From Saccharothrix syringae (GTDB taxonomy: Bacteria > Actinomycetota > Actinomycetes > Mycobacteriales > Pseudonocardiaceae), in assembly GCF_009498035.1 (NCBI RefSeq), contig NZ_CP034550.1:7812001-7876000 (forward strand): DNA of 64,000 bases. The letters are read 5' to 3'. Under the pieces are notes generated by a model, which was given only the letters and a program-made list of their open reading frames with translations, was not told the origin of the DNA and did no database searches. Below, piece after piece: positions 5,343 through 34,272 of this stretch. The position numbers were made by a program, and so were the translations under genes. The first letter of the stretch is position 1. Every line of letters begins with the position of its first letter.

Positions 5343-5632
5343 CCGGGCACCTCCACCCCGCCTCGGCGCACACCCGACGATCGCGATGGAAGTGGAAAAC
5401 GTTGCGCCGTGCCGCAAAAACCCGCGAAGTACAGGCATTCGGACGCACCCGGATTCCGCGCGGGGTGGAAAGCGGCGCCGCCCGACCACGTCCCGCCACA
5501 CCCGCGAGCACGTGCCGCCCCTCACCGCGCCGCCCCACCGGCGCGACCAGGTCTCCCCGCGACCCGAGCCCGCCCCGCAACCAACGGGCGGTGGTCGACG
5601 CCCTCGGGCGCGCGAGCGGAACCGCAACCGTC
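5343..5632. other. Intergenic region upstream of the protease-kinase-vWA set
   Basis: This gap separates the DAHP synthase stop from the protease start; both genes are on the minus strand. It is a little less GC-rich around 5385-5440 and presumably carries the promoter of the three-gene set. I found no repeat, RNA gene or clear operator in it. Confidence 0.5.
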
Positions 5633-6655: not shown

Positions 6656-8078
6656 CTGCGGAGTCCTTCTCGTGTGCGGGTCGGGCCACCGGGGGGCGGC
6701 GGGGCAGCCTGGTCGCGCCGGCGGCGGCGACGAGGACCAGGGCGAGCACCCACCAGAAGGTGTCGGCGAACGCGGCGGCGACGTCGGGCCCGCGGACCGC
6801 CGACCGCTGCCGGAGGACCACCGCGAGCACGGCGGTGCCGATGCCGCCGCCGACGGTGTTGAGCAGGTTGAGGGCGCCGGCCGCGCGGGGCAGCCGCGCC
6901 GGGGCGACGGCGCGGTAGACGGTGTTCATCACCGGCGCGCCGATCATCGCCGCGCCGAGGCCGCGCACCAGCAGCGCGACCGCGACCGCGGCGTCCGGCA
7001 GCGCCGGGCCGAGCTGGGTGAGCGGGGCCGTGCCCAGGGCCACCAGGCCGATGCCCGACAGCACCAGCGTGCGCGGGGCGGTGGTGTCGATCAGGCGGTT
7101 GACGAGCACCGAGCCCGCCGCCGCGCCCACGCCCTGCGGCGCGAGCAGCAGCCCCGCCTGCCACGCGGTCAGGCCGCCGCCGGTCTGGAGGTACAGCGGC
7201 AGCAGGAACATCGTGCCGAACACGGACGCGCCCAGCACCACCAGCGCGAGCGCCGCCACCCCGAACGGCGGCCGGGCGAACAGGCGCGGGTCGATCAGCG
7301 GGGTGCGGGAGGTGCGCAGCCCGTGGACCACGAAGCCGACCAGCATGCCCAGGCCCACCAGCACCGCCGCCGCCACCAGCGGCACCGGCCGGGCGTCGCC
7401 GACGCCGGTCAGGCCGAAGACCAGCACGGCCAGGCCGGGCGACAGCAGCAGGGCACCGCGCACGTCGAACGCCACCCGCCCCTCGGCGGGCGGTACGACG
7501 GGCACCCAGCGCCGGGCCAGCACGATCGCGGCCAGGCCGATCGGCACGTTGACGTAGAACAGCCACGGCCAGTCCGCGGCGCTCAGCAGCGCGCCGCCGA
7601 CCGGCGGGCCGAGCACCGGCGAGAGCAGCGGCACCACGCCCACCACGCTGATCAGCCGACCGATCCGCTCCCGGCCGGCGACCCGGGCCAGCAGGGCCTG
7701 CCCGGTCGGCGGGAGCAGGCCGCCCGCCAGGCCCTGGAGCACGCGGAACACCACCAGGCTGGGCAGCGACCAGGCCAGCGCGCACAGCACCGAGGCGAGC
7801 AGGAACCCCGCCACCGCGACCAGCCACGTCCGGCGTCCGCCGAAGCGGTCCGCCAGCCAGCCCGAGGCGGGCACCGCCGCGACCACGGCCAGCAGGTAGG
7901 CGGTGGTGGCCCACTGCACGTCGGTGACCGGCGCGTCGAACCGGTCGGCCAGCGCGTCCACGCCGACCGAGACGATGGTGCCGTCCAGGGTGGCCATGAA
8001 GGTGCCGAGCACGAGCACGAACGCGACCCGCCACAGCGCCGCGTCCACGGGCGGTCGGGTGGCGGGGGCGCGGTTCAC
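6648..8078 (-). CDS. MFS drug/siderophore exporter (DHA2-like)
   Basis: Protein of 476 residues with about 14 hydrophobic segments. The first helix contains [12 protein letters not shown], like the DHA2 motif LDxTIVNVALP, and the loop after it reads [11 protein letters not shown] (MFS motif A). A further signature is [11 protein letters not shown] (motif C region typical of drug:proton antiporters). The GTG start overlaps the NRPS stop as GTGA. Its place between the NRPS and the DAHP synthase in an iron-regulated operon suggests that it exports the finished catecholate siderophore across the cytoplasmic membrane. Related transporters also pump drugs, so the substrate is inferred from context only. 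Confidence 0.88.
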
Positions 8079-20020: not shown

Positions 20021-21015
20021 AGCGGCGCCGCCCCGTACCGGCGGACGGCCCAGACCAGCACCGGGCCGCCGAGGAACGCGGTCACGATCGCCACCGGCAC
20101 CTCGCCGGTGGGCAGCAGCACCCGCGACCCGATGTCGGACACCACCAGCAGCACCGGGCCGAGCACCGCCGCGTACGCGGTCAGCCAGGGCACCGACGCG
20201 CCCGCCAGGCGCCGCGCCAGGTGCGGCACGATCAGGCCGACGAACAGGATCGGCCCGGCCACCGCCGTGGCCGCCCCGGCCAGCGCGGTGATCAGCACCA
20301 GCGCGACCAGCCGGACCCGGGCCACGTTGGCGCCCAGGGCGTGCGCGGTGGTCTCGCCGAGCGCGATGGCGTCGAGCTGCCTGCTCAGCAGCAGCGCGCC
20401 GAGCACGCCGAGCGCGATCACCAGCAGCGGCCACGCGTTGGGGGCCTGCTCCCGGCCGGCCAGCGAGCCGACCGCCCAGAAGCGGTACTCGTCGAACACG
20501 TCGGGCAGCAGCAGGCGCATGCCCAGGGACACGCCCGCCAGCACCGAGCTGAGCGCGACCCCGGTCAGCACCAGCCGCAGCGGGGAACCGCGGCCGACCG
20601 AGTAGACCAGCAGCGCCGCCGCGACGGCGCCCAGGACGGCGAGCAGCAGCTCGCCCGCCGCCGAGGCGGTCAGGCCCAGCGCCGAGCCGACCGTGATGGC
20701 GAACCCGGCGCCGGCGGTCACGCCGAGCACGCCCGGCTCGGCCAGCGGGTTGCGGGACAGCACCTGCACCAGCACGCCGGACACGGCGAGCGCGGCACCC
20801 GCGCCGACGGCCAGGACCGCGCGGGGCAGCCTGATGTCGCGGACCACGAGGTGGTCGCTGGAGCCGTTGGGCTCCAGCAGCGCCCGGACGACCTCGGCCG
20901 GGGCGATGGCGTGCGCGCCGACGCCGACGCTGACCACCGCCACCCCGACCAGCAGGACGAGGGCGGCGACGAGCAGGACGACCCGCGCGCCCGACCGCCG
21001 GCGCGTTCCGGTCAC
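20017..21015 (-). CDS. Ferric-siderophore ABC transporter permease (FecCD/FepD type)
   Basis: Protein of 332 residues with about nine to ten hydrophobic helices. It carries the FecCD-family stretches VVRDIRLPRAVLAVGAGAAL, SRNPLAEPGVLGVTAGAGF and AGPILFVGLIVPHLARRL (ATPase-coupling loop). The start is GTG at 21015, overlapping the binding-protein stop. It is paired with the next permease to form the importer channel. Nothing is unusual in length or motif content. Confidence 0.94.
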   Translation of the reverse strand: MTGTRRRSGARVVLLVAALVLLVGVAVVSVGVGAHAIAPAEVVRALLEPNGSSDHLVVRDIRLPRAVLAVGAGAALAVSGVLVQVLSRNPLAEPGVLGVTAGAGFAITVGSALGLTASAAGELLLAVLGAVAAALLVYSVGRGSPLRLVLTGVALSSVLAGVSLGMRLLLPDVFDEYRFWAVGSLAGREQAPNAWPLLVIALGVLGALLLSRQLDAIALGETTAHALGANVARVRLVALVLITALAGAATAVAGPILFVGLIVPHLARRLAGASVPWLTAYAAVLGPVLLVVSDIGSRVLLPTGEVPVAIVTAFLGGPVLVWAVRRYGAAPL

Positions 21016-22019
21016 TTCTGCAGCAGCGGCGCGAACGCCTGGTCGGCGGCTTCGAGGGTCTTGATCGCGGACCGGTACGTCGCGGCCTCGGTGTAGCGCA
21101 GCGGGAAGGTCTTGCCCGCCTTGACCGCGGGCAGCTCCTTCCACAGCGGGGAGTCCAGCACGTACTGCACGCCGGCCGGGACCGAGCCGTCGGCGGCGAC
21201 CGAGTAGGTGATGGCGTCGGCCTCGCCGAACGCGGCGGTCAGCTCCTCGATCGACGGGTACTCGCTGACGTCCTTGGAGCCGCCGCCCTTGACCTTGACC
21301 TGGCCGTAGTAGGTGGCGCCGAGGTCCTGGGCGACGTTGGTGCCCCAGGAGCCGTTGAACTCGCGCTGGAAGTTGCCCTTGGCGACCTCGCCGTAGGCGC
21401 CGACGTGACCGAGCTTGAGCTTCGGCAGGACGTCCTTGTACTTGTCGGCCAGCTCCTTGGCCTTGGTCTCGTACTGGCCGCGCACCGCGTCGAACTCGGA
21501 CAGCGCGCCGGCCGCGTCGGCCTGCTTCTCGGACAGCTCGCGCCACGCCGACGGCACGCTCGGGCCGATGGCCACGACCGGGGCGATGGCCTCCAGCCGC
21601 TTGAGGTCGATGTCGGCCAGCACCGGCTTGGGCACGCCGATGACGATCAGGTCGGGGTCGGCCTGGGCGATGGCCTCGTAGTTGGTCTCCGCCGCGGACT
21701 CGCCGGCGACCTTGGCCAGGCCCTCGTAGGTCTTCAGGTCCTCCTCGGTCATCAGCGGCACGCCGCGCTTCCAGGTGGAGATCCCGACGAGCGGCGCGTC
21801 CGCCTCCAGCAGGGCGGGCACCGCGTAGCCGGTGGCCACCACCCGCTTCGGCGAGACCGGGATGGTGATGTCGCCGTTGTCGGCGGTGAACACGCGGGTC
21901 CCGGACCCGGTCGTCCCGGCCGCGGGCGCGTCGCCGCTCTCGGCGGAACCGCAGCCGGTGGCCACGGCGAGGGCGACCGCGAGCGCGGCGGCGAGGCGGG
22001 GGGATCTGGCGATGGACAT
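21012..22019 (-). CDS. Siderophore-binding lipoprotein (FepB/FeuA-like periplasmic-binding family)
   Basis: Protein of 335 residues. It begins with a lipoprotein signal peptide: positive MSIARSP, a hydrophobic Ala/Val stretch, and the lipobox VATGC near residue 23, so it should be anchored outside the membrane by its cysteine. The body is a class III binding protein of the iron-chelate type, recognisable from SPKRVVATGYAVPALLEADA, YEAIAQADPDLIVIG and LEAIAPVVAIG. It delivers ferric siderophore to the two permeases encoded next. The start ATG lies 46 bases after the SIP gene, one of the larger gaps in the operon, but no iron box is visible there. Confidence 0.93.
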   Translation of the reverse strand: MSIARSPRLAAALAVALAVATGCGSAESGDAPAAGTTGSGTRVFTADNGDITIPVSPKRVVATGYAVPALLEADAPLVGISTWKRGVPLMTEEDLKTYEGLAKVAGESAAETNYEAIAQADPDLIVIGVPKPVLADIDLKRLEAIAPVVAIGPSVPSAWRELSEKQADAAGALSEFDAVRGQYETKAKELADKYKDVLPKLKLGHVGAYGEVAKGNFQREFNGSWGTNVAQDLGATYYGQVKVKGGGSKDVSEYPSIEELTAAFGEADAITYSVAADGSVPAGVQYVLDSPLWKELPAVKAGKTFPLRYTEAATYRSAIKTLEAADQAFAPLLQK

Positions 22020-22065
22020 GCTCGTTCCTCGGGGGTTTCGTTCTTCTCGGGTGGTTCTGGGGGGA

Positions 22066-22923
22066 TCAGTGGTCGTGGTCGTCGTCGAAGTCGGCGACGC
22101 CGCGCTTCCAGTAGCCGGTGACGTCGTGGTCCGCCTTGCCCAGGCCCAGCTCGTCGCGGATCCAGCGGCGCAGCGGCTTGATCGCACCGGCCTCGCCCGC
22201 GACCCAGGCGTAGACGCGCTCGCCCTCGGGGACGCGCACGCCGGCGCGCACGGCGCGGGCCAGCAGGTCGGTGGTGCCCGCCGGGGCGTCGCCGCGGTGC
22301 AGCCAGTGCACCTCGACGTCCTCGGGCGCGGACAGCTCGATCTCCTCGCCCGCGTCGGCGACCTCGACGAACGCCCAGCCGGCCGCGGTGCGCGGCAGCT
22401 CCTCCAGCCACCGGGCGATCGCGGGCAGCGCGGTGAGGTCGCCCGCCAGCAGGTAGCGGTCGTAGCTGTGCGGCACGATCAGCCCGCCGGGCGGACCGGC
22501 GACGTGCACCACCGCGCCCGGCTCGACCGACCGCGCCCAGTCCGCGCCCAGCCCGCCGTCGTGCAGGGCGATGTCGATGTCCAGCTCGCCGGTCGCCGGG
22601 TCGTAGCGGCGCACGGTGTACTCGCGCGAGGTCGGCGACGGCTTGGGCCAGCGCAGCATGGTCCCGTTCGGCTCGGGCAGCCGCAGGGTGCCGTCCGGGT
22701 CGGGGAACAGCAGCTTCACGTGCTCGTCGGGCGAGTGGGCCTCGAACCCGGCGGTGCCCGGACCGCCCAGGGTGACCCGGAGCAGCCCGGAGCCGACCCG
22801 GCCGGTGCGCACGACCTCGGCCGCGCGGACGCGGATGGGGTAGCCCACCTTCTCCGCGGCGCGGCCCGCGCGGACCTCGGCGATCCGCTCCAGGTGCCGG
22901 TCGCGGTGGTCGACCCGGCTCAC
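22066..22923 (-). CDS. Siderophore-interacting protein, FAD/NAD(P)H ferric-siderophore reductase
   Basis: Protein of 285 residues from a GTG at 22923 that overlaps the carrier-protein stop (GTGA); longer in-frame starts upstream would run through that gene. Family features are [10 protein letters not shown] (flavin-binding R-x-Y-T), [26 protein letters not shown] (nucleotide-binding region) and the C-terminal [14 protein letters not shown] typical of SIP reductases such as ViuB. It probably releases iron inside the cell by reducing the imported ferric catecholate. The acidic His/Asp tail (DFDDDHDH) is a small oddity that may bind metal. Confidence 0.93.
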
Positions 22924-23180
22924 GCGCGCGTCCCGGCGACCAGCTCGGCCCAGCGCTCCAGGCGCGGGTCCTCGGCCAGGTCCGCGAACTCCAGGCCGGT
23001 CGCGCCGGCGGCGCGCCACCGCTCGACCAGGCTCATGATCCGCATCGAGTCCAGGCCGAGGTCGAGCAGGTCCGCGTCCGGCTCCAGTTCGGCGGGCGCG
23101 ACGCCCAGCAGGTCGGCGACGTCGGCGCGGACGCGTTCGACGGACAGCGGTTCGGTGCCGTGCTGGTCGGGGTTGCTCAT
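22920..23180 (-). CDS. Stand-alone aryl carrier protein
   Basis: Protein of 86 residues, the size of one carrier domain. The phosphopantetheine attachment site is the serine in [13 protein letters not shown]. In Bacillus DhbB and E. coli EntB the aryl carrier is fused to isochorismatase; here it is a separate small gene whose ATG overlaps the isochorismatase stop (ATGA), so the two are still coupled. It should be loaded with 2,3-dihydroxybenzoate by the adjacent AMP ligase and feed the first condensation domain of the NRPS, and possibly its last one. Confidence 0.92.
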
Positions 23181-23845
23181 CGGGTGGCTCCGGCGGGGAT
23201 CGGGGCCGACAGCGCGGCGAGCGCGTCGGCGGTGGTGGTGACGGCGCCGCAGCGCTGGGCGACGTACTCGCACGCCTGGTCGTGCCGCTCGCGGGAGAAG
23301 TCGGCGACCGCGTCGCTCACCAGGAACGGCCGGACGTCGCGCATGAACGCCTCCACGGCCGTGGCCAGGCAGCCGATGTGCGCGTAGACGCCGGTGATCA
23401 GGAGCTGGTCGCGGCCCAGCTCGTCGAGCTGCTCGCCGAAGGTGCTGCGCTGGAACGCGCTGTAGCGCCACTTGGTCAGCACGGTGTCGCCCGGCGCGGG
23501 CGCCAGCTCGGTCACGATGTCGGCGGCGGCGGGGTCGGCGTCGATGACCCCGCCGATGCCCGGTCCCCAGAACTCGGTGAGCAGGCCGCGGTCGGCGGCC
23601 TCCGGGCGGGCCGGCTGCGCGGTGTAGAACACCGGGATGCCCCGCTCCCGCGCCACCGCGATCAGCGCGGCGGTGTTGGCGACCATCTCGGGCAGCGGCG
23701 CGCCCCGGTACGGCGCCAGGAAGTAGCGCTGCGCGTCGTGCACGAGCAGCGCCGCGCGCGCCGGGTCGGGTCGCCAGGCCACCCGGCCCGCGGGCAGGTC
23801 GGCCGCGGTGGGCATCGGGTAGGGCCGGATCTCCGGCAGGGACAC
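23177..23845 (-). CDS. dhbB: Isochorismatase
   Basis: Protein of 222 residues. It hydrolyses isochorismate to 2,3-dihydro-2,3-dihydroxybenzoate and pyruvate. It matches the EntB/DhbB N-terminal domain: [14 protein letters not shown] with the catalytic Asp, [14 protein letters not shown] with the Lys, and [21 protein letters not shown] with the Cys-containing loop. The family's usual C-terminal aryl carrier domain is missing and is encoded by the next gene. GTG start at 23845, three bases after the ligase stop. Part of the dhbC-dhbE-dhbB run that makes the catechol building block. Confidence 0.94.
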
Positions 23846-23848
23846 GTC

Positions 23849-25483
23849 TCACCCCTCCTTCGCCAGGGCGGCCAGCGCCGCCCGCAGTTCGCGCTTGCTG
23901 GTCTTGCCGACGCCCGTCACCGGGAACGCCTCGACGACCTGGACCAGGTCGGGCACCTTGAACGCGGCCACGCCGCGGTCCCGGACGAAGCGGCGCAGCT
24001 CCGGGGCGGTGGGCGCGGCGCCCGCCACGGGCACCACGTAGGCGCAGGTCCGCTCGCCCAGGTAGGCGTCGGGCACCGCGACCACGGCGGCGTCGAGCAC
24101 GCCGGGGTGGGCCATCAGGTGGTTCTCCACCTCTTCGGCGGCCACCTTCTCCCCGCCCCGGTTGATCTGCTCCTTGGCCCGGCCGACGACCTCCAGGTGC
24201 CCGGTCGGCGTGCGCCGCACGAGGTCCCCGGTGCGGTAGAAGCCGTCCGGGGTGAACGCGGTCGCGTTGTGCGCGTCGGCCCGGTAGTAGCCGCGGATGG
24301 TGTACGGGCCGCGGGTCAGCAGGGCGCCGACCTCGCCGGGCGGCACCTCGGCGGTCGACGCGGCCCGCGGGTCGTCCGGGTCGACCACGCGGATCTCGTC
24401 GTCGAGCGAGATCGGCCTGCCCTGGGTGGACAGCACGACCTCGTCCGGGTCGTCGAGCCGGGTGTAGCAGACCAGGCCCTCGGCCATGCCGAACACCTGC
24501 TGGAGCCGGCAGCCCAGCGCGGGGCCGATCCGCTCGGCCAGCTCGCGGCCGCACTTGGCGCCGCCGACGAGCAGCACCTCCAGGCTGGACAGGTCGTGCG
24601 CGCCGCGCGCGGCGGCCTGCACCCAGGCGGCGGCCAGCGGCGGCACCACCCCGGTGATGGTGACGCGCTCGGCCTCGATCAGCCGGAACGCGGTGTCGGC
24701 GTCGGGGCGCGGCGCCAGCACGACCTTCGCGCCGGCGTGCAGCGCGCCGAGCACACCGGGCGAGCTGAGCGGGTAGTTGTGCGCCACCGGCAGGGCGGCC
24801 AGGTAGGCGCTGTCCGGGCGCAGCGCGCAGATCCGGGCGCTCTCCCGGACGCTGTAGAGGTAGTCGTCGTGGGTGCGCGGGATCAGCTTGGGCAGCCCGG
24901 TGCTGCCGCCGGAGAGCTGGAGGAACGCCACGCCGGCCGGGTCGGGGTCGGGCAGCTCGCGCGGCGCGGCGGCGGCCAGGTCGGCGAACTCCGCGGACCC
25001 GACGACGAGCACGTGCCGCACCGAGGGCACCTCGGCGGCGACGGCGCGCGCGGTGGCCGCGTGGTCGTGCCGCTCGTGCTGGTCGACGGTGAGGACGGCG
25101 ACGGCCCCGCTCTGCTCGGCGAAGTGCCGCAGCTCGCTGTGGCGGTGCGCGGGCAGCGCGAACACCGGCCAGGCGCCCACCCGCCACAGCCCGAACACCG
25201 CGGGCAGGAACTCCGGCACGTTCGGCAGCTGCACCACGACCCGGTCGCCCGCGCGGACGCCCAGCTCCACCAACCCGGCGGCGATCCGGTGCGCCCGGTC
25301 GTCCAGGTCGGCGTAGGTCCAGCGGACCTGCCCGCCGCCCTGCTCGCCGACGACGGCGGTGCGGTCGGCGTGGGCGGCGCGCAGCGAGGTGAGCAGCGCG
25401 CCGAAGGTCTGGCCGCGCCAGTGCCCGGCGGCGCGGTAGCGGGCCGCGACCTCCGGCGGCCAGGGGACGTGGTCGGCGTTCAC
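23849..25483 (-). CDS. dhbE: 2,3-Dihydroxybenzoate-AMP ligase
   Basis: Protein of 544 residues, the normal length for EntE/DhbE. It activates 2,3-dihydroxybenzoate with ATP and transfers it to the aryl carrier protein. Motifs: [18 protein letters not shown] (ATP loop), [12 protein letters not shown] (aryl-acid pocket region as in DhbE), [23 protein letters not shown] and the hinge/lysine region ending [11 protein letters not shown]. Dihydroxybenzoate rather than salicylate is inferred from the presence of dhbA, dhbB and dhbC. The GTG start overlaps the dhbC stop as GTGA; a longer frame upstream would run through dhbC. Confidence 0.94.
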
Positions 25484-26673
25484 GCGGAGACCTCCAGCCC
25501 CAGGGCGCGCAGCAGGGTGCGGAACTTGGCGCTGGTCTCGACGACCTCGGCGGCCGGGTCGGAGCCCGCGACGATGCCCGCGCCCGCGAACAGCCGCACG
25601 GTCCGGTCGCACACCTCGGCGCTGCGGATGGTGACCACCCACTCGCCGTCGCCGCTCGCGTCGGTCCAGCCGACCAGGCCGGAGTAGTAGCCGCGGTCCT
25701 CGGGCTCCAGCTCGGCGATCGCGGCGCGGGCGCGCTCGACCGGCACCCCGCACACCGCGGGCGTCGGGTGCAGCGCCTCGGCCAGCGCCAGCGCGGACGC
25801 GCCGGGGTCGTCGGGACGGGCGAGCCTGCCGGTGATCCGGGTGGACAGGTGCCACATGGTCGGCGTCCCGATCACGGTCGGCTCGGGCACGTCCAGGTCG
25901 GTGCAGAACCGGCCCAGCACCTCGGCGACCTGGGCGGAGACGTGCGCGTGCTCGGCCCGGTCCTTGGCCGAGGCCAGCAGGGCCGCGACGCGCCTGCGGT
26001 TCTCGGCCTCGTCCGCGACGCGCGGCAGCGAGCCGGCCAGGGGGTTGGCCACGACCTCGTGGCCGCGCCGGGAGACCAGCAGCTCGGGGCTCGCGCCGAC
26101 CAGGGTGCGCGGCGCGGGGTCGCCGGGCGCGCTGACGTCGACGGCGAAGGCGTGCGCGGCCGGGTTCAGCCGCACCAGCCGGGTCAGCAGCGCGGGCACG
26201 CCGACCGGCTGGTCCGCGGTCAGCTCCAGGCAGCGGGCCAGGACGACCTTGCCCAGCTCGCCGTCGTCGATCAGGGCCAGCGCGCGGCGCACGCCCTCGG
26301 CGTAGACCTCCGGCTCGGGCCGCGGCGTGATCGACCACGAGGCCGAGCCGGTGGCGGCCACCGGGCCGTCCGTGCCCGGCGCCCCCGCGCGGCGCACCAC
26401 GGCGGGCACGACCAGGCTGGTCTCGGCGTCCGGCCGGAACCCGATCGCCCCGACCACCACCGGGTCCCCGACCCCGAGCACCGACGCCGCGTCCAGCGCC
26501 TCGGCCGCCGCGCGCGCCCGGGTCCCGTGCGGGGCCCGCACGGTCGCGTGCACGCCGTCGGCGAGCAGCGAACCGGTGGTGGAGGAGTAGTAGAACGACC
26601 CCGGCAGGTAGGCGGCCAGCAGGTCGGCCGCCCGGTGCACGGGGTGTGGCCGGACCAGAGCAGGTGAGGACAC
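25480..26673 (-). CDS. dhbC: Isochorismate synthase
   Basis: Protein of 397 residues with a GTG start and GGGAAG upstream. It isomerises chorismate to isochorismate. Chorismate-binding family signatures are [65 protein letters not shown] and [15 protein letters not shown]. Length and motifs fit EntC/DhbC rather than a salicylate synthase, and a separate isochorismatase is present. It is the first gene of the long siderophore operon and has its own iron box about 66-84 bases upstream. Confidence 0.95.
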
Positions 26674-26738
26674 GTCGGGGCTTCCCTTTCGGAGCTCGGT
26701 GGTGGTCGTGGGGCGGCGTCGGGTTACACACTCTTTAC

Positions 26739-26757
26739 TTAGGCGAGCCTAGCCTAA
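26739..26757 (-). promoter_or_regulatory. Iron box (DtxR/IdeR/DmdR-type operator) upstream of dhbC
   Basis: The 19-base site TTAGGCGAGCCTAGCCTAA on the plus strand matches the actinobacterial iron-box consensus TTAGGTTAGGCTAACCTAA at 15 of 19 positions. It lies between the dhbA stop and the dhbC start in a locally AT-rich patch. Iron-loaded repressor should block the long operon here. Confidence 0.85.
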
Positions 26758-26799
26758 TTTAGTAATGCTCAGGAAGGCTCCGGAAGGCGTGCGACCCGG

Positions 26800-27591
26800 T
26801 CAGACGCGCAGGGTCGCGCCGCCGTCGACGAACAGGTTCTGCATGGTGATGTGCCGGGCGCGGTCGGAGACCAGGAACAGCACGGCCTCGGCGATGTCCA
26901 CCGGATCGGCCAGGCGGCCCAGCGGGATGCCGACCCGGAACCGCTCCGGGTCGCCGGCGACCACCCGGGCGGGCGCGTCCTCGTCCGTCCACAGCAGACG
27001 CTGCATGGGCGTGTCGGTCGAGCCGGGCGACACCACGTTGCACCGGATGCCGCTGCCCGCCAGCTCCAGGCCCAGGCAGTGGGTCAGCATGGTCGCCGCG
27101 GCCTTCGAGGCCGCGTAGGCGGCCATCCCGACCCGGGGCACCCCGGCCGCGTTGGACCCCACGGTGACCAGGGCACCGCTCCCGCGCGGCACCATCTTCC
27201 GCGCCAGCGCGCGCAGCACGGCGAACACACCGGTGGTGTTGACCGCGAACGTGGCCGCCCAGTCCTCGTCGGAGGTCTCGCACACCGCGCCCGGCCGCAG
27301 GATGCCCGCGACCGAGACCCCGATGCCGATCGGGCCCACCTCGCGCTCGACGTCCTCGACCAGCCGCGCGACCGCCGCGGTGTCCCCCACGTCCACCGCG
27401 CGGGGGTGCACCCGCCCGCCCGAGCCCGCCGCGGCCTCCTCGACGCCGTCCGCGTCCACGTCCACCGCGACGACCGTCGCGCCCGCGCGGACCAGCACGT
27501 CCACCACGGCCGCCCCGATACCGCGGGCGGCCCCGGTGACCAGGGCGACCCTGCCCTCGACACCCGGCTCCCGCTGCCCCGACGAGGCCAC
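26800..27591 (-). CDS. dhbA: 2,3-Dihydro-2,3-dihydroxybenzoate dehydrogenase (SDR)
   Basis: Protein of 263 residues from a GTG at 27591 with AAGGGAG upstream. It is a classical short-chain dehydrogenase: [12 protein letters not shown] (NAD-binding glycine motif), the VSVAG stretch where NNAG is usual, catalytic Ser in VTVGSNAAG and YAASKAA. The C-terminal [19 protein letters not shown] fits EntA/DhbA. It oxidises the dihydrodiol to 2,3-dihydroxybenzoate, completing the pathway encoded by dhbC and dhbB downstream. It has its own iron box and is separated from dhbC by 126 bases, so it may be a separate transcript. Confidence 0.93.
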
Positions 27592-27618
27592 CCGGCGCTC
27601 CCTTCACCGACGAATTCA

Positions 27619-27637
27619 TTAGGTTGGCCTAACCTAA
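27619..27637 (-). promoter_or_regulatory. Iron box upstream of dhbA
   Basis: TTAGGTTGGCCTAACCTAA is a near-perfect palindrome and differs from the actinobacterial iron-box consensus at two central positions. It sits 28-46 bases before the dhbA GTG on the minus strand, so a DtxR/IdeR-type regulator should repress dhbA when iron is plentiful. It is the stronger of the two boxes. Confidence 0.9.
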
Positions 27638-27978
27638 CTTGCCCGAAGGGCCCGTGGTTAGCCCATTTGAGTGATCTGAATCATGGTCGCGTTCGGGGGT
27701 TCGGGGCTTGCGGAACGGCGTGCCCCGCCTGTCCCGCGGCGGTTGTTCGACTCGGTGAGCCGGTTCCCCGGAGCGGAACTCCGGCCGGCGGCGGGACCGG
27801 GTCGAGGTCCCCCGAGGAGGACCCGGAGCCCGGGAGTCGGGGCGGCCGGCCGACGCCGTCCCGTTCCGCGCGCGCGAGGTCGACGCCGACCGTACACAGT
27901 GGACTTCACCGAAAACAGGTGGCCCGTTCCCCGCTCGAATGCTTATTTTGTCGGGGAAACCGGCATTGGGAGGCGATC
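27638..27978. other. Divergent intergenic region between dhbA and the RNA-repair operon
   Basis: After the iron box, about 340 bases lead to the RNA-ligase start. The part nearest the plus-strand gene (27935-27960) is AT-richer, with TTATTTTG that could serve as a -10 region, and GGGAGG precedes the ATG. No additional gene, RNA or repeat is evident. Confidence 0.45.
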
Positions 27979-29802
27979 ATGCGCGTGCCGTACCCGCGCA
28001 CCCCGCACCTCCCGTGGTCACCGGGTGCCTCCTCGGACGACGTGCGGGTCGTCGACCTGACCGGCTTGCGCGGCCACGAGGTCGTGGTCACCGAGAAGCT
28101 GGACGGGGAGAACACCACCCTGTACCCGGACGGCCTGCACGCCCGCTCGCTCGACTCGGCGCACCACCCGTCCCGCTCGTGGGTCAAGGGCCTGCACGGG
28201 CGCATCGCGGCGAGGCTGCCCGCGGGGTGGCGGGTGTGCGGGGAGAACGTCCACGCCCGGCACTCCATCGCCTACACCGACCTGGAGAGCTGGTTCTACG
28301 GCTTCTCGGTGTGGGACGGCGACCGGTGCCTGGGGTGGGACGGCACGGTGCGGTTCCTGCGGTCGGTCGGCGTGCCCACTCCCCCGGTGCTGTGGCGCGG
28401 GGTGTTCGACGAACGGGCGCTGCGCGCGCTGCGGGTCGACACCGAGCGGCAGGAGGGGTTCGTGGTGCGGACCGCGGAGGGGTTCGGGTACCCCGAGTTC
28501 GGGCGGCGGGTGGCCAAGTGGGTGCGGCCGAACCACGTCCGGACCGACGCGCACTGGACGAGCGCGCCGGTGGTGGCGAACGGGCTGGGGTCGGCGGCGG
28601 TGCTGTGGGACGTGCGATCGGGTGCGGCGGTCGACGTCCGGGCACTGCTCGCGGCGGCCGGGGTGAACGGCTCGGGTGGCTTGGACGGCTTGGACGGGTC
28701 AGGCGGCTCGGCGGGCTCGGGCGGCTCGACGGGCTCGGGCGGCTCGGTGACGGCGATGGGCGCGCGGGACGGGAACGCGGGCGGCTCGGCGGGCTCGGTG
28801 GCGGCGGTCGGCGTGCGAGACGGGATCGACCTGGTGGCCGCCGAGGAGGTCGCCGCCACCCCGCTGGGAACCGGGGACACGCGGCTGGCGGCCGTGCTCG
28901 CGGCCGCCCTGCACCGCGTCCCACGCGGCCGGGTGGCACCGCTGCCGGCCGCCGCGGGCGTCGGCGTGGCACGCCGGGCCGGCGACCTGGTCGGCCTGCA
29001 CCGCCTGCTGCACGAGCCGTTCCCGGACGACTCCCGCGCCGCGGGCCTGCTGCGCCTGTCGACCGCCGTCGACCTGACGGCCCTGCACGCGGTGTCCGCC
29101 GCGGTCGCCCCCACGCCCGAGGCGCGAGACCTGGTCGCCTGGTCCGCCCTGCACGCCGAGGAGGTGCGGCCCTGGGACCCCCTGCGCTCGGGCCTGCGCG
29201 CCCAGCTCGGCCGGGGCCCGGCCGCCGACCGGTGCCTGGCCGAGGCGCGGGACGCGAGCCTGCGCGCCGGGCGGGTGCTGGACACCGCCGAGGCGGTGGC
29301 CGCGACGTGGCGGTGGCGGTCCGGCGACTTCCCGGTCCTGGTGCAGCTCGTCGGCTTGTCGGGCAGCGGCAAGAGCACGTTCGCCGCGGGCCTGCCGGGG
29401 GTGGCCGCGCACCTGTCGCTGGACGACCTGCGCGCCGAGTCGGGCGACCGGGCCGACCAGCGGGACAACGGCCGGGTGCTGCGCACCGGGCTCGCCCGGC
29501 TCGACGCGGCACTGCGCGCGGGCGGCACGGTGGTGTGGGACGCGACCTCGCTGTCGGACCACCAGCGGTCCGCGGTGCACGCGGTGGCCCGGCGGCACAA
29601 CGCACTGGTGACGCACGCGGTGGTGCTGGTCGACGAACGCACCGCGGCCCACCGCAACCGCACGCGGGCGCACCCCGTGCCACCCGCCGTCCTGGCCGCC
29701 CAGGCGCGCCGGTTCAGCCCGCCCTACCCGTGGCAGGCCCACCGCACCTGGTACGTCGGCCCGGCCGGCACCGTGGACGACACCGACGACGGGGAGCCGT
29801 GA
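27979..29802 (+). CDS. RNA ligase fused to P-loop polynucleotide kinase-like domain
   Basis: Protein of 607 residues from an ATG with GGGAGG upstream. The N-terminal third is a nucleotidyltransferase-fold RNA ligase: motif I EKLDGEN with the adenylated lysine at residue 40, CGENVHARHSIAY, QEGFVVRT (motif IV region) and RVAKWVRP (motif V). Residues about 222-262 form a Gly/Ser-rich linker made of near-repeats. A helical region follows, then from about 455 a kinase domain with Walker A GLSGSGKST, VVWDATS and a lid-like region rich in Arg. This pairing allows 5' phosphorylation and sealing of broken RNA. The stop overlaps the start of the next gene by one base (TGATG). The family is recognisable; the damaged RNA substrate is unknown. 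Confidence 0.88.
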   Translation: MRVPYPRTPHLPWSPGASSDDVRVVDLTGLRGHEVVVTEKLDGENTTLYPDGLHARSLDSAHHPSRSWVKGLHGRIAARLPAGWRVCGENVHARHSIAYTDLESWFYGFSVWDGDRCLGWDGTVRFLRSVGVPTPPVLWRGVFDERALRALRVDTERQEGFVVRTAEGFGYPEFGRRVAKWVRPNHVRTDAHWTSAPVVANGLGSAAVLWDVRSGAAVDVRALLAAAGVNGSGGLDGLDGSGGSAGSGGSTGSGGSVTAMGARDGNAGGSAGSVAAVGVRDGIDLVAAEEVAATPLGTGDTRLAAVLAAALHRVPRGRVAPLPAAAGVGVARRAGDLVGLHRLLHEPFPDDSRAAGLLRLSTAVDLTALHAVSAAVAPTPEARDLVAWSALHAEEVRPWDPLRSGLRAQLGRGPAADRCLAEARDASLRAGRVLDTAEAVAATWRWRSGDFPVLVQLVGLSGSGKSTFAAGLPGVAAHLSLDDLRAESGDRADQRDNGRVLRTGLARLDAALRAGGTVVWDATSLSDHQRSAVHAVARRHNALVTHAVVLVDERTAAHRNRTRAHPVPPAVLAAQARRFSPPYPWQAHRTWYVGPAGTVDDTDDGEP

Positions 29803-32555
29803 TGCGCACCAGCGAACAGGTCTACCACCAGGTCCGCTGGGACCCGCGGCTGGACCCGGCCAGGTTCGTGCTCGGCGTCGGGCAGCGCGGCGGGCGGACC
29901 GAGCGGATCGCCCTGCCCGCGTTCACGCCCGGTGGCGAGGTGCCGTGGCACCGGGTGCTGTTCGTGGAGGCGGACGGCGAGCTGGTGTGGGACCGGGCGA
30001 CCGGGCTGGACCGCGTCGGCGCGACGGAGGCGGGACGGGTGCGCGCGCCCCGGCGGCTGCGGGCGCCGGCGTTCACCGCGAGCACCCCGCACGCCTGGGA
30101 CCCGCGACGCGGCTGGGTCCCGGCGGAGCCGCGCCCCGCCGAGCCGCGGCGTGTCGAGCCCGCCGAGCCCCGGGACGTCGGACCGGCCGAGGTGCGCGTG
30201 CTGACCTGGAACGTGCTGTGGGACCGCTACGACCACGAGCGCATCGACACCGCCAACCGCCGCCCCCTGCTGCCGGCCGAGCTGGCGACGGCCGACGCGG
30301 ACGTGATCGCGCTCCAAGAGGTCGAACCGGACCTGCTGGCGGCGCTGCTGGCCGAGCCGTGGGTGCGGGCGGACTACACCGCGGACGTCGACCCGACCGG
30401 CCCGGACGTCGACCGCACCGGCCTGGTGATCCTCAGCCGCCTGCCGGTGCTGGAGGCCGGGCGGCTGGCACTCGGCCCGCACAAGGCCGTCGCCGCGATC
30501 GTCGTCGGCACCCTCCTCGTCGCCACCACGCACCTGACCAGCGACCACACCTCCGGTGGCGCCGCCGAGCGGGACCGCCAGCTGACCCGCATCGCCGAGG
30601 CCCTGGACGGCGTCGGCGGGGACGTGGTGCTGGTCGGCGACTTCAACGACGGCGGGCCGCGGCCAGCCGCCGCGCTCGGGGCGCGCGACGCGTGGCCGGA
30701 GGCGCGCGACGACGAACCGCCCACCTTCGACCCGGCGACCAACCCGCTGGCCGCGGTGTCCTCGCCGGCCGGCCGGGCGGCCCGGCTGGACCGGGTGTTC
30801 CTGCGCGGCCGGCCCCGGTGCGTCGGCGCGGAGCTGCGGGGCACCGCGCCCACGGCCGCCGGCCTGTTCGCGTCGGACCACTACGGCGTGCTGGCGCGGG
30901 TGGCACCGGCCGACCTGGTCGCGTCCGACCACCACGGCACGCCAGTGCGGGTAGCGCCCGCCGAGGTGCCGCCCCCGACGCCGCGGACCGCGGTGGTGTG
31001 GCTGCCGGCGGCGCGCGAGGACGTCGACCGCGTCCGCCGCGAGCACGACCACCGCGCCACCCGCTGGCCGGCGCACGTGACCCTGCTGTTCGGCTTCGCC
31101 CCGGAGCACGACTTCGACCGCGCCGTGCCCCTGCTCGCCGCCGCAGCCGCCGAGGTGCCCGCCTTCGACGTGCGGGTGGCGGGCGTCCGGGAGTTCCGGC
31201 GCGACGTGGTGTGGCTCGACCCCGCCGCCGCGGGCACCGAGCGGTGGACGGCTCTGCACGACGCGCTGCGACACAGATTTCCCTTGTACGCCAAGGACTT
31301 CACCCCGCACCTGACAGTCGGCCGTTCGCGGGAGGCGGCCGATGGGATCGGCGCGTGGTCGGACCGCGTGGACCGGCTCGTGGTGCTGTCCCGCCGCGGC
31401 GACGGCCCGATGCTGCCCCGCGCTGCGGTCGCCCTGGGCACGGGTGAGGTGACGTGGTTCGCCGAGCCGCCGACGGCGCCGGGCCCCGCGGTGGACGGGG
31501 TGGCCGGGCGGGTGCTGGACGCGGTGGCGGCCGCGCTGGGCGAGGTGCACGTGGTGGGCTCGCGGCGGATGGGGTGCGCGCTGCCCGACGCCGACCTGGA
31601 CCTGGTGGCGGTGGTGCCGGACCCGGCGGTGGCGGCCGGGCGGGTGGCGGAGGCGCTGCCGGGCGCGACCTCGGTGCGGTCGGTGGTGGGCGCCCGGTCA
31701 CCGGGGCTGCGGCTGGTGGTGGACGGGCTCGGGGTGGACCTGGCCCTGGTCGGTGGGGCGGACGGGGCGGCGCCGGACGCGGGGACCCACAGCGAGACGG
31801 CATCGGGCGCGATCACCGATCGCAGGACCGACCGCGAGGTGGCGTTGAGCGCGATCACCGATGCCGAAGCGGTGCTGGCGGCCGTCGGTGACCGGGTGGA
31901 CGCCTTCCGGCGCCTGGCCCGCCAGGTGAAGGCGTGGGCACGGGCGCGCGGCCTGGACTCCGCGCCGTTCGGCGGAATCCCGGGCCTGGGCTGGGCCGTG
32001 CTGGCCGCGCTGACCACGCGCGAGCACGACGGCCCCGACCCGCTAGGCGGCTTCTTCGCCACCTGGGCCGCGTGGGACTGGCGCGACCCGGTCGCCCTCT
32101 CGTCCCCGCCGCACCGCACCGGGGCGCCGATGACGATCCTGACCCCCACCGCACCCGTGCGCTCCTGCACCGAGCAGGTCACCACCGGGTTCCGCGACCT
32201 GCTGACAGCCGAGCTGTACCGGGCGTGGGAGATCACGGGGGCAGGCGGCCGACTGCTGTCCCCACCCGACCTGCACCGCCTGCACGCCACCTGGGCCGTG
32301 GTGACGGTGCCGCACGACCTCGTCGGGCCGGTGCGCGGGCGGATGCGCGCCCTGCTCACCGCCCTGGCGCCGGACGCCCACGCCTGGCCCCGTCCCATCG
32401 CGCGCGACGCGGACGCGGTGCGGTTCGCGATCGGCCTGGGCCGTCGCCCGGTGCCCGCTTCAGCGCTCGCCGGGATCGCCGCCGGGTGGGCGAAGGGGTG
32501 GCGCGGCGTCGAGGTCGCCCTGGTGGGCAATGGCGAGGTGCCCACCCCGCGCTGA
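29802..32555 (+). CDS. Four-domain RNA-repair protein: MJ1316-like, EEP, 2H phosphoesterase, nucleotidyltransferase
   Basis: Protein of 917 residues. Residues 1-70 match the MJ1316/DUF504 domain, proposed to recognise cyclic phosphate RNA ends (ALPAFTPGGEVPWHRV, GELVWDR). About 130-365 is an endonuclease/exonuclease/phosphatase domain: LTWNVLWDRY, IALQEVE, GDFND, SDHYGV. About 395-540 is a 2H phosphoesterase (LigT-like cyclic phosphodiesterase) with two HxT motifs, AHVTLLF and PHLTVGR. From about 565 comes a poly(A)/CCA-type nucleotidyltransferase (VVGSRRMGCALPDADLDLV with the DxD acidic pair) and a helical domain typical of archaeal-type poly(A) polymerases. Together they could recognise and open cyclic ends, trim, and re-extend RNA for the ligase-kinase encoded just before. 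The combined function is inferred. Confidence 0.88.
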   Translation: MRTSEQVYHQVRWDPRLDPARFVLGVGQRGGRTERIALPAFTPGGEVPWHRVLFVEADGELVWDRATGLDRVGATEAGRVRAPRRLRAPAFTASTPHAWDPRRGWVPAEPRPAEPRRVEPAEPRDVGPAEVRVLTWNVLWDRYDHERIDTANRRPLLPAELATADADVIALQEVEPDLLAALLAEPWVRADYTADVDPTGPDVDRTGLVILSRLPVLEAGRLALGPHKAVAAIVVGTLLVATTHLTSDHTSGGAAERDRQLTRIAEALDGVGGDVVLVGDFNDGGPRPAAALGARDAWPEARDDEPPTFDPATNPLAAVSSPAGRAARLDRVFLRGRPRCVGAELRGTAPTAAGLFASDHYGVLARVAPADLVASDHHGTPVRVAPAEVPPPTPRTAVVWLPAAREDVDRVRREHDHRATRWPAHVTLLFGFAPEHDFDRAVPLLAAAAAEVPAFDVRVAGVREFRRDVVWLDPAAAGTERWTALHDALRHRFPLYAKDFTPHLTVGRSREAADGIGAWSDRVDRLVVLSRRGDGPMLPRAAVALGTGEVTWFAEPPTAPGPAVDGVAGRVLDAVAAALGEVHVVGSRRMGCALPDADLDLVAVVPDPAVAAGRVAEALPGATSVRSVVGARSPGLRLVVDGLGVDLALVGGADGAAPDAGTHSETASGAITDRRTDREVALSAITDAEAVLAAVGDRVDAFRRLARQVKAWARARGLDSAPFGGIPGLGWAVLAALTTREHDGPDPLGGFFATWAAWDWRDPVALSSPPHRTGAPMTILTPTAPVRSCTEQVTTGFRDLLTAELYRAWEITGAGGRLLSPPDLHRLHATWAVVTVPHDLVGPVRGRMRALLTALAPDAHAWPRPIARDADAVRFAIGLGRRPVPASALAGIAAGWAKGWRGVEVALVGNGEVPTPR

Positions 32556-32562
32556 CCCAACC

Positions 32563-32860
32563 CGGCTCCACCTGCCCGACCCAGCCCAGCCCAGCCGCGC
32601 CCCACCCCGCCGCGCCGCGCCCCGCTCGGCCCAGTCCAGCCCCACCCAATCCAGCGCCGCCCCGCCGCGCCCCGCTCGGCCCGACCCAGCCCCACCCAAT
32701 CCAGCCCCGCCCCACCCAGCCGCGCCGCGCCCCGCTCGGCCCAGTCCAGCCCGCCCCAACCTCACCCAGCCCAACCTCACCCAGCCCAACCCCGCGCTGA
32801 CCAGCCCCGCGCCGCCCCACCCAACCGCTCAGCCACCCAACCGCTCAGCCACCCAACCGC
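32563..32860. repeat. C-rich minisatellite between convergent genes, G-quadruplex-prone on minus strand
   Basis: Nearly 300 bases of the plus strand are poor in T and made of degenerate repeats. Three blocks share CCCCGCTCGGCCC followed by CCCAATCCAG or a variant. Then CCCAACCTCACCCAG is repeated at about 32752-32790, and CAACCGCTCAGCCACC occurs at about 32822-32860. On the minus strand the middle block gives runs GGGG-GGG-GGG-GGG-GGG separated by two to seven bases, a classic G-quadruplex pattern. The last repeats reach into the 3' end of the MFS gene and duplicate its final codons and stop. No ORF here is credible. Confidence 0.85.
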
Positions 32861-34272
32861 GCGGCCGTCCGCTCAGCCGTCCCCCGCGCCCACCGCCCCG
32901 TGGTCAGCACCCCCAGCACCAGCACCACCCCACCGCAACCCGCGACAACCCACCACCCGACCTGGGGCAACCCGACGCTCAACGGCCCACGAGCGGCCGA
33001 CGTGACCACGGCGCCGATCACGGCCACGCCGAGGGACTGGCCGACCTGGCGGCTGGTCGAGGCGACCGCCGCGGCGACACCCGCCTGCGCGCGCGGCATC
33101 CCGGACACCGCCGTGTTGGTGATGGGCGCGTTGAGCATGCCGAACCCGATGCCGAACAACACGTACGAGGTAATGATCTGCCACAGGGGTGTGTCGGCCG
33201 ACAACCCGGTGAGCACCAGTGCGCTCGCGGTGATCCCCACCCCCGCGACGAGCAGCGGAACGCGCGGCCCGACGCCGCCCACCAACCGCCCGGACAGCGG
33301 CGCGCACACCGCCGTCAGCCCGGCCATCGGCAGGGTCAGCAGGCCCGCGTGCAGGGCGGACAGGCCCAGCACCTCCTGGAGGTGCAGGGTGTTCAGGAAC
33401 AGGAACCCGGCCAGCGCGGCGAACCCGCACACCGCGATGCCCGTGGCACCGGCGAACGGCGCGCTGCGGAAGAACCTCGGGTTGATCAGCGGTTCCGGCC
33501 GGCGCAGCTCGTGGGGCACCAGGCAGACCAGCGCCAGCGCGGACACCGCGAAGCAGCCGAGCGTCTGCGCCGAGGTCCACCCGGCCGCCGGCGCCTCGAT
33601 CAGCCCGTAGGTGAGGCCGACGAGCAGCACGACGACGAGCACCTGCCCCACCGCGTCCAGCGGCCGGGCGCGCGGCGCGCGGGACTCGGGCACGTACCGG
33701 CCGCACAGGGCGAACGCGACCAGCCCGACCGGGAGGTTGATCCAGAAGACGGCCTGCCACCCCACCGCCGCGACCAGCACGCCGCCCAGCACCGGCCCCA
33801 GCGCCATGCTGATGCCGACCACACCACCCCACACGCCGATGGCCCGCGCGCGTTCCCGGGGTTCGGTGAACGTGTTGGTGATGATCGACATGGCGACCGG
33901 GTTGAGCATGGACCCGCCCACCGCCTGCACCGCGCGCGCCGCGACCAGCCACCCGAGCCCGGGCGCGAGCGAGCACAGCAGCGAGCCGAGCGTGAACAGC
34001 ACCAGCCCGGCCCGGAAGGTGCGCCGCCGCCCGATGCGGTCGCCGGTCGAGCCGGCCAGGACGAGCAGGCTCGCCAGCACCACCGTGTAGGCGTCGATGA
34101 TCCACTGGAGGCCGGAGAGCGGGGCGCCCAGGTCCTGGCGCATGGCGGGCAGCGCGACGTTCACGATCGTGTTGTCGAGGCCGACGATGAACAGGCTGGT
34201 GCAGCAGATGGCCAGGACGACCAGCCGGCCGCGGCGGTCCAGCCGCGCGGTGGGTGCGTCGACCGCGGTCAC
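32845..34272 (-). CDS. MFS multidrug efflux transporter (DHA2, EmrB/QacA-like)
   Basis: Protein of 475 residues with about 14 membrane segments. Motifs are LDNTIVNVALPAM in helix 1, STGDRIGRRR (motif A) and GPVLGGVLVAAVGWQAVFWINLP. It is a proton-driven exporter of hydrophobic compounds. A GTG start only six bases after a TATAGT -10-like element suggests leaderless transcription from the short gap behind marR. It follows the MarR regulator on the same strand, so efflux controlled by that regulator is likely. Its last codons and stop are repeated in the adjoining minisatellite. Confidence 0.92.
   Translation of the reverse strand: MTAVDAPTARLDRRGRLVVLAICCTSLFIVGLDNTIVNVALPAMRQDLGAPLSGLQWIIDAYTVVLASLLVLAGSTGDRIGRRRTFRAGLVLFTLGSLLCSLAPGLGWLVAARAVQAVGGSMLNPVAMSIITNTFTEPRERARAIGVWGGVVGISMALGPVLGGVLVAAVGWQAVFWINLPVGLVAFALCGRYVPESRAPRARPLDAVGQVLVVVLLVGLTYGLIEAPAAGWTSAQTLGCFAVSALALVCLVPHELRRPEPLINPRFFRSAPFAGATGIAVCGFAALAGFLFLNTLHLQEVLGLSALHAGLLTLPMAGLTAVCAPLSGRLVGGVGPRVPLLVAGVGITASALVLTGLSADTPLWQIITSYVLFGIGFGMLNAPITNTAVSGMPRAQAGVAAAVASTSRQVGQSLGVAVIGAVVTSAARGPLSVGLPQVGWWVVAGCGGVVLVLGVLTTGRWARGTAERTAARLGG

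Follow-up and report, generated by a model that had tools for sequence, protein, structure and literature searches.

What does a soil actinobacterium do with a pair of overlapping genes that join an RNA ligase and a polynucleotide kinase to an RNA end-recognition domain, an EEP domain, a 2H phosphoesterase and a poly(A) polymerase (PAP)? The pair, open reading frame 1 (ORF1) and ORF2, lies in Saccharothrix syringae, whose genome is one 10.9-Mb contig (NZ_CP034550.1), within the 64,000-nucleotide stretch from position 7,812,001 to 7,876,000 that we analysed (the window; coordinates are counted from its first letter). On the strength of domains, catalytic residues, homologies, linkage and decay patterns, all observed directly, we propose that the two proteins probably constitute a stand-alone, patchily inherited heal-and-seal system for the repair of RNA breaks. 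Published work is cited by its PMC number.

Two linked genes encode six conserved modules

An earlier note, made from the sequence alone, had placed six modules on the two proteins, and Pfam recovered all six. ORF1, which begins with the ATG at 27979, matched PF09414 RNA_ligase (amino acids [aa] 34-182, E 1.7e-33) and AAA_33 (aa 454-582, E 1.1e-23); ORF2 matched MJ1316 (1-65, 2.1e-16), Exo_endo_phos (134-360, 2e-18), 2_5_RNA_ligase2 (403-514, 8.5e-26) and, in its C-terminal part, PAP_central (702-812, E 1.2e-6; its score of 28.7 bits exceeds the cut-off, 27.1). One module was absent from the list, a degenerate HD-like domain that separates the ligase from the kinase, and the one-base overlap of the two genes is as described (TGA at 29800-29802, ATG at 29802-29804). 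The AlphaFold2 models had a mean pLDDT of 78.9 (ORF1) and 85.4 (ORF2).

The gene pair is not a chance arrangement, because relatives of ORF2 are encoded in 291 genomic stretches, and about 8000 scored candidates for each protein yielded 1349 database matches to ORF1 and 1256 to ORF2. For each protein 120 matches were listed, of which those from Actinosynnema and Saccharothrix are the closest; residues were counted in 77 database relatives of ORF1 and 87 of ORF2 (alignment A3). The domain content is already recognised by databases, in which ORF2 relatives from many sources are named RNA repair domain-containing protein or poly(A) polymerase. Neither protein scored above cut-off with any NCBIfam model or matched RtcB ligase in Pfam, and the PADLOC anti-phage models gave just a weak mad3 P-loop match at E <= 0.01 (E 0.0015).

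Table 1. Predicted features of the gene pair (positions in the window, except for the last two rows, which refer to locus L037)
Feature	Position	Strand	Basis
ORF1, 607 aa: RNA ligase, degenerate HD-like domain, polynucleotide 5'-kinase	27979..29802	+	translation, Pfam, homologs
RNA ligase domain of the DRB0100 type, aa 1-225, with K40 of TEKLDGEN as adenylation Lys	27979..28653	+	homology, conserved residues
Gly/Ser-rich low-complexity linker	28660..28830	+	sequence, alignment A2, lengths
Helical middle domain, decayed HD phosphohydrolase	28828..29322	+	hhalign, residue counts
Polynucleotide 5'-kinase domain, aa 452-600; P-loop GLSGSGKST	29332..29778	+	
TGATG stop/start overlap, one base	29800..29804	+	sequence
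ORF2, 917 aa: MJ1316, EEP, 2H, poly(A)-polymerase-like	29802..32555	+	translation, Pfam
MJ1316 domain (Pfam: RNA cyclic group end recognition) and following strands	29802..30125	+	Pfam, conserved residues
EEP domain, TDP2-like; N137, E173, H244, D280, N282, D330, D359, H360	30183..30917	+	
2H phosphoesterase domain; H425-V-T and H503-L-T	30975..31466	+	Pfam; profile best match B. subtilis 2d4g, 2.7e-9
Poly(A) polymerase of canonical type, with its catalytic (G586, S587, D598, D600, D646), central and RNA-binding domains	31479..32552	+	
L037, kinase remnant of ORF1	3614-3997		
L037, intact ORF2	3849-7076		

ORF1 resembles a fused Deinococcus ligase and kinase

Judged by homology, the ORF1 ligase is of the DRB0100 type: it is 58% identical over 204 aa to Deinococcus radiodurans DR_RS15960, with the same K40, the residue reported to be adenylated in DRB0100 (PMC1997131), and K40, D42, G43, E89, E159 and K180 are kept in 77/77 database relatives. 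No credible solved-structure relative of the domain was found, an absence from the match list that excludes no ligase fold. DraRnl, tried as the nearest ligase relative, was dropped, as the Deinococcus match is the other, DRB0100-type gene. The 342-aa D. radiodurans ligase DR_RS15930, which we take to be DraRnl/Rnl5, is 27% identical to ORF1 (E 7e-4); an additional N-terminal module is the defining trait of the DraRnl/Rnl5 clade, and ORF1 starts at the ligase domain without such a module.

The middle domain aligned with the HD domain of Deinococcus HD-kinases (hhalign probability 97.1, E 7.5e-11). In the ORF1 relatives the His of the HD motif is present in 66/77 and the Asp in 8/77, the stretch of the first His lying outside the alignment, so that by sequence the motif Asp appears lost and the HD phosphohydrolase motif of HD-Pnk (DRB0098) no longer intact. 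The kinase that follows is 38-43% identical to those of Deinococcus HD-kinases of the DRB0098 type, and its P-loop K465 is invariant, so that ligase and kinase catalytic residues are both kept in 77/77 relatives. ORF1 thus looks like a fused DRB0100-DRB0098 pair with a dead phosphatase. The linker behind the ligase is expanded in this ORF1 (pLDDT <50 at aa 237-278), its closest relatives among the matches listed being 545-564 aa long, with most of the linker missing.

In four genomes of the same family (G355, G407, G424, G456) a further gene of 182 aa, ending at the ORF1 start, forms a second ligase-like frame in the operon (L111:480-1025, also L108, L109 and L110; motifs KLDGTN, EGLVFHH and KIKRKDF); its Pfam RNA_ligase match is below cut-off and its match to RNA ligase 1 is not significant.

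ORF2 couples end-processing domains to a complete poly(A) polymerase

The active sites of ORF2 are similarly conserved. W13, D14 and H50 of MJ1316 and all the catalytic residues of the EEP domain are kept in 87/87 database relatives. The literature had led us to expect an ANGEL2-like EEP, an assignment weakened by the profile matches (TDP2 8.1e-15 versus ANGEL2 0.0054); TDP2 is also the best fold match, and both sequence and model place the domain closest to TDP2, with 5'-phosphotyrosyl hydrolysis as a putative activity.

The 2H domain, by comparison, is a dispensable module that has been lost repeatedly. Two Hx[ST]-type motifs are present in the window, and H425 and H503 are found in 86/87 and 84/87 relatives; the first motif reads HVN instead of HVT in 68/87 actinobacterial relatives. 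In three of the 87 (P0019, P0021, P0022) the domain is shortened to 114-125 of 164 residues, with the second His also gone in two of them; it is absent from one of 17 further pairs of the same family (L121, among L108-L124) and, with EEP and PAP intact, from 4/121 cyanobacterial proteins. As it is shortened, deleted or changed in its motif among relatives, we consider ligase, kinase, EEP and PAP to be the core.

Pfam assigns the nucleotidyltransferase region to PAP_central, NTP_transf_2 and MTPAP-like_central, and finds no match to the RlaP family at E <= 1. All three canonical domains occur in canonical order, the best sequence relatives are RNA poly(A) polymerases, and the GS and Asp triad are kept in 87/87 database relatives and in 79/81 sequences of the locus set described below, arguing for a complete eukaryote-type canonical PAP. 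The earlier note had left a choice between CCA- and poly(A)-type enzymes; the poly(A) type holds, given the three domains and the Asp triad, and the CCA-adding reading was dropped on pocket residues, fold matches and Protein Data Bank (PDB) sequence matches, which do not thereby exclude CCA enzymes (the 38 PDB sequences with a match at E <= 10 include no such enzyme, an absence that is no proof). The base that is added is uncertain: the actinobacterial pocket has D719 (86/87) and A721 (87/87) where human PAPgamma has Tyr and Asn, and cyanobacterial proteins have Tyr (77/121) or His (39/121) and Asn (118/121). If, as in yeast PAP, this Tyr and Asn read the base, the actinobacterial enzyme may not prefer ATP.

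The two exceptions in the locus set, L015 and L050, are the only ones in which Asp600 is replaced by Asn (DLN for DLD). Their orphan ORF2 keeps the EEP and 2H residues despite this change, and could possibly be a pseudo-polymerase retained for RNA binding.

ORF1 and ORF2 mostly persist and decay together

The locus set comprised the best 80 of the 291 ORF2-encoding stretches, clustering and residue counts being done with 81 sequences; alignments A5-A8 were built from loci chosen at <66% identity, 14 for the ORF2 parts and 12 for the ligase, with L094 or three outgroup ligases added and L015 and L050 left out. In a first pass ORF1 matter lay directly upstream of ORF2 in 77/80 loci, with a one-base overlap in 45, gaps of 0-7 bases in 27, a 14-base overlap in three, 50 bases in one and a frame shift in L088. 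Rechecking coverage left 65 end-to-end ORF1 matches directly upstream, including L088 (its frame shift is near the ORF1 end; an ORF1-ORF2 fusion there was rejected, as the open frame is a shifted reading of that end), 10 matches cut by a contig end, and L027, an open frame with one part aligned. As L076 has ORF1 elsewhere in its genome, ORF1 is present in 77/80 genomes with ORF2, in 10 of them seen in part only. Of the rest, L037 (Microtetraspora sp.) has ORF1 reduced to the kinase end (query 476-603; residues 479-602 in the coverage recheck) despite 4 kb of upstream DNA, its genome yielding only this remnant and another kinase and no ligase part, and no ORF1 was found in the L015 and L050 genomes, one of which gave a weak kinase-type match. 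Apart from L037, L015 and L050, the two genes therefore mostly persist and decay together. A further conserved neighbour was not evident, the next gene family occurring in <=19/81 clustered sequences (all-against-all comparison, crude gene prediction).

The distribution is patchy. Among 296 actinobacterial genomes MJ1316 occurs in two, both with ORF1, and the other 294 contain no full-length ORF1 match (G205 has the ligase part alone). Within the family of S. syringae, ORF2 was found in 19/249 genomes, 18 of them with an adjacent RNA_ligase match; in the exception, G457, ORF1 is nearly all deleted and ORF2 is spread over three frames, in which the catalytic codons can still be read. Remnants in G441 and G440 have a ligase that stops after ~143 and ~133 residues and an ORF2 that is broken or gone. 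PAP_central (PF04928) occurs in 17/249 genomes of the family, 16 times in the operon and once in an operon remnant; this search missed three of the 19 ORF2 genomes (L108-L110), whose PAP residues are intact.

The four ORF2 domains recur in the same order in a 991-aa protein of a Calothrix brevissima plasmid typed as conjugative, which is 28% identical to ORF2 end to end and whose PAP part matches yeast PAP at 7.7e-38. It is matched by 162 database proteins, the best 120 being cyanobacterial where named. Phage or viral origin of ORF2 was rejected: no match was found in phages, and of 74 pattern matches in viral contigs none was confirmed. Streptomyces plasmids carry short MJ1316 and 2H-type pieces without the other ORF2 parts (L095:6001-6837, L096:4298-5134, L097:5001-5513), perhaps remnants or a reduced version, and a Caulobacter jumbo phage encodes a ligase of the same type with ~150 extra N-terminal residues, followed by an HNH gene (L098:3551-4630).

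A heal-and-seal model and its alternatives

That the proteins process a cyclic-phosphate break, re-add nucleotides and seal had been suggested in the earlier note, and the domains and their residues lend this partial support; an RNA substrate, each enzymatic step, the order of steps and a role against toxins are what we infer from the families concerned. MJ1316 of ORF2 would dock onto the broken 3' end, where 2H, if present, would open the 2',3'-cyclic phosphate and the TDP2-like EEP would take off the remaining phosphate or end adduct. The PAP could then optionally add nucleotides to the resulting 3'-OH, the ORF1 kinase would phosphorylate the 5'-OH, and the DRB0100-type ligase would seal. 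ORF1 may have descended from, or share ancestry with, the Deinococcus DRB0100 and DRB0098 pair, the decay of its HD domain being consistent with a transfer of 3' healing to ORF2. ANGEL2, which removes 3'-phosphates before mitochondrial polyadenylation (PMC9525292), is a precedent for an EEP enzyme that feeds a PAP. The same genome encodes a Tpt1-type 2'-phosphotransferase, so that a 2'-phosphate at the joint could be removed, and, outside the operon, RtcB, so that another ligation route exists.

A stronger version, in which a DRB0100-type ligase otherwise unable to seal requires template-independent re-extension of the healed 3' end by the PAP, is possible yet doubtful. If true, it would explain the apparent inactivity of DRB0100, and canonical PAPs would have a function in bacterial repair that is distinct from the tailing of mRNA. 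A rule by which PAP catalysis is lost whenever the ligase is lost was rejected, since in L037 the PAP is intact although ORF1 is mostly missing; a 2-by-2 table of PAP and ligase loss (78, 0, 0, 2; P 0.0003), which ignored kinship, is superseded by the same locus. That the PAP depends on the ligase is thus only weakly indicated.

Several observations weigh against the heal-and-seal proposal. (i) No activity of ORF1 or ORF2 was reported in the literature searched, and DRB0100, the nearest ligase to have been studied, adenylates yet sealed none of the DNA or RNA offered, operon partners included (PMC1997131). (ii) The ligase family is common without ORF2, in phages, on Deinococcus and proteobacterial plasmids and in G205. 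(iii) L037 retains all PAP residues in its ORF2, which can therefore persist without a ligase, and no PF09414 ligase was found on the Calothrix plasmid, so that ORF2 may act with other ligases or alone. (iv) L015 and L050 are sister strains and count as one event; relaxed selection on their PAP was not apparent, since 22 non-overlapping control pairs span dN/dS values of 0.25-0.73 and the two strains give 0.49. (v) The likeness of the EEP to TDP2 points to phosphodiester bonds at 5' adducts no less than to 3'-phosphates. (vi) Co-occurrence with RNA-cleaving toxins, which the earlier note had proposed as a check, did not emerge: AAA_13 nuclease, the only toxin family covered, showed no association with the operon.

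Some of these points would fit other functions. Bacterial poly(A) tails promote decay, and ORF2 might clean and tail RNA for degradation while ORF1 seals what can be salvaged, tailing competing with sealing. Such triage would accommodate L037, an intact ORF2 without ligase, and in metazoan mitochondria ANGEL2, a CCR4-family enzyme of the EEP kind, precedes PAP tailing in the same order as in the EEP-PAP fusion (PMC9525292). We nevertheless regard it as rather unlikely: of the three genomes that lack a usable ORF1, two have a broken PAP site (one event), as against 0/77 with ORF1, and within the family sample PAP_central is confined to the operon and a remnant of it, patterns which suggest that the PAP serves the ligase; in addition, the EEP is nearer TDP2 than ANGEL2.

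That resemblance to TDP2, the best EEP match in profile and fold, would instead favour an enzyme that strips 5' adducts (a protein, or the AMP of abortive ligation) for the ligase, with the 3' modules secondary; TDP2 doubles as the VPg unlinkase that frees picornavirus RNA of its peptide (PMC7077319). We judge this unlikely as the principal function. Repair of DNA or of RNA/DNA hybrids would follow the first description of the D. radiodurans operon, as a function in DNA repair was proposed for the homologous DRB0098-DRB0100 (PMC1997131), which responds to DNA damage by induction (PMC11833690), and TDP2 acts on DNA (according to entry titles). It appears improbable in view of MJ1316 and PAP, which are RNA-end modules by their Pfam names, of the best PAP relatives, which are RNA poly(A) polymerases, and of DRB0100, which ligated no DNA (PMC1997131).

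Comparison with known systems

The nearest counterpart of ORF1 is the D. radiodurans operon DRB0100-DRB0099-DRB0098 (ligase, PARG macrodomain, HD-phosphatase/kinase; in gene order ligase, TIGR02452, HD/AAA), with the ligase likeness given above, a kinase 38% identical to that of ORF1 and an HD domain homologous to its middle domain. Unlike there, ligase and kinase here share one protein with a decayed HD domain, in a two-gene unit that lacks a PARG gene and has gained a four-domain end-processing/PAP protein.

A 2016 survey by Burroughs and Aravind, the founding work of this field, is said to have predicted RNA-repair systems of biological conflicts with a syntax of ligase, kinase, end-healing phosphoesterases and nucleotidyltransferase, which is also that of ORF1-ORF2. 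Eukaryotic fusions of MJ1316 to RNA-repair domains are attributed to this survey (PMC6514570), and the nucleotidyltransferase cited from it is RlaP (PMC7824862); ORF2, unlike RlaP, carries a predicted canonical PAP. With eukaryotic canonical PAPs (PAPalpha/PAPgamma, yeast Pap1, Pla1) it shares the three domains and the catalytic Asp triad, and differs in its fusion behind MJ1316-EEP-2H and in Asp719/Ala721 for the Tyr/Asn of human PAPgamma. Fungal tRNA ligase Trl1 unites ligase, kinase and 2H on one chain acting at 2',3'-cyclic-phosphate breaks; Foldseek lists Trl1-LIG-KIN (9r3w), but the superposition is poor (root-mean-square deviation 18.1), and here the modules are on separate proteins and joined by EEP, MJ1316 and PAP. 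In Pnkp1-Rnl-Hen1, a kinase and ligase repair ribotoxin-cleaved RNA (PMC4411300); its kinase fold matches the ORF1 kinase (4xrp), whereas ORF1 and ORF2 lack Pfam matches to the Hen1 methyltransferase or a Pnkp-type phosphatase.

A eukaryotic-type PAP in cyanobacterial RNA repair was not found in the literature searched, most subscription papers being outside the search. Measured against that literature, four points seem new: the placing of ORF1 in the DRB0100/DRB0098 lineage, its HD domain being dead; the likeness of the EEP to TDP2; a full canonical PAP that the family sample shows only in the operon; and the recurrent loss of 2H. The gene pair links three loose ends: an RNA-ligase family for which adenylation, but not sealing, has been demonstrated; a complete canonical bacterial PAP, which among the family genomes sampled occurred only in this operon or a remnant of it; and end-recognition and end-cleaning modules whose order is the same in Actinobacteria and Cyanobacteria. 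Since two proteins suffice and their active sites are conserved, an order of healing, extension and sealing is directly testable.

Genomic surroundings

No non-coding partner was detected: the window had no Rfam match at gathering score, positions 27000-33500 had none at E <= 1, a tRNA scan found none, and the upstream regions shared only short k-mers, the most frequent in 17/83. Directly 3' of ORF2, about 330 bases (32556-32890) consist of imperfect CCCAGCCC/CCGCGCCCC repeats. On the other side, the palindrome TTAGGTTGGCCTAACCTAA at 27619-27640, upstream of a divergent SDR gene, resembles the consensus of an actinobacterial iron-regulator box and presumably serves the neighbouring siderophore genes. 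The frames at 21012-27591 on the minus strand resemble, from their translations alone, a catecholate siderophore set (binding protein, flavin reductase-like protein, isochorismatase, dihydroxybenzoate [DHB]-AMP ligase, isochorismate synthase and SDR dehydrogenase).
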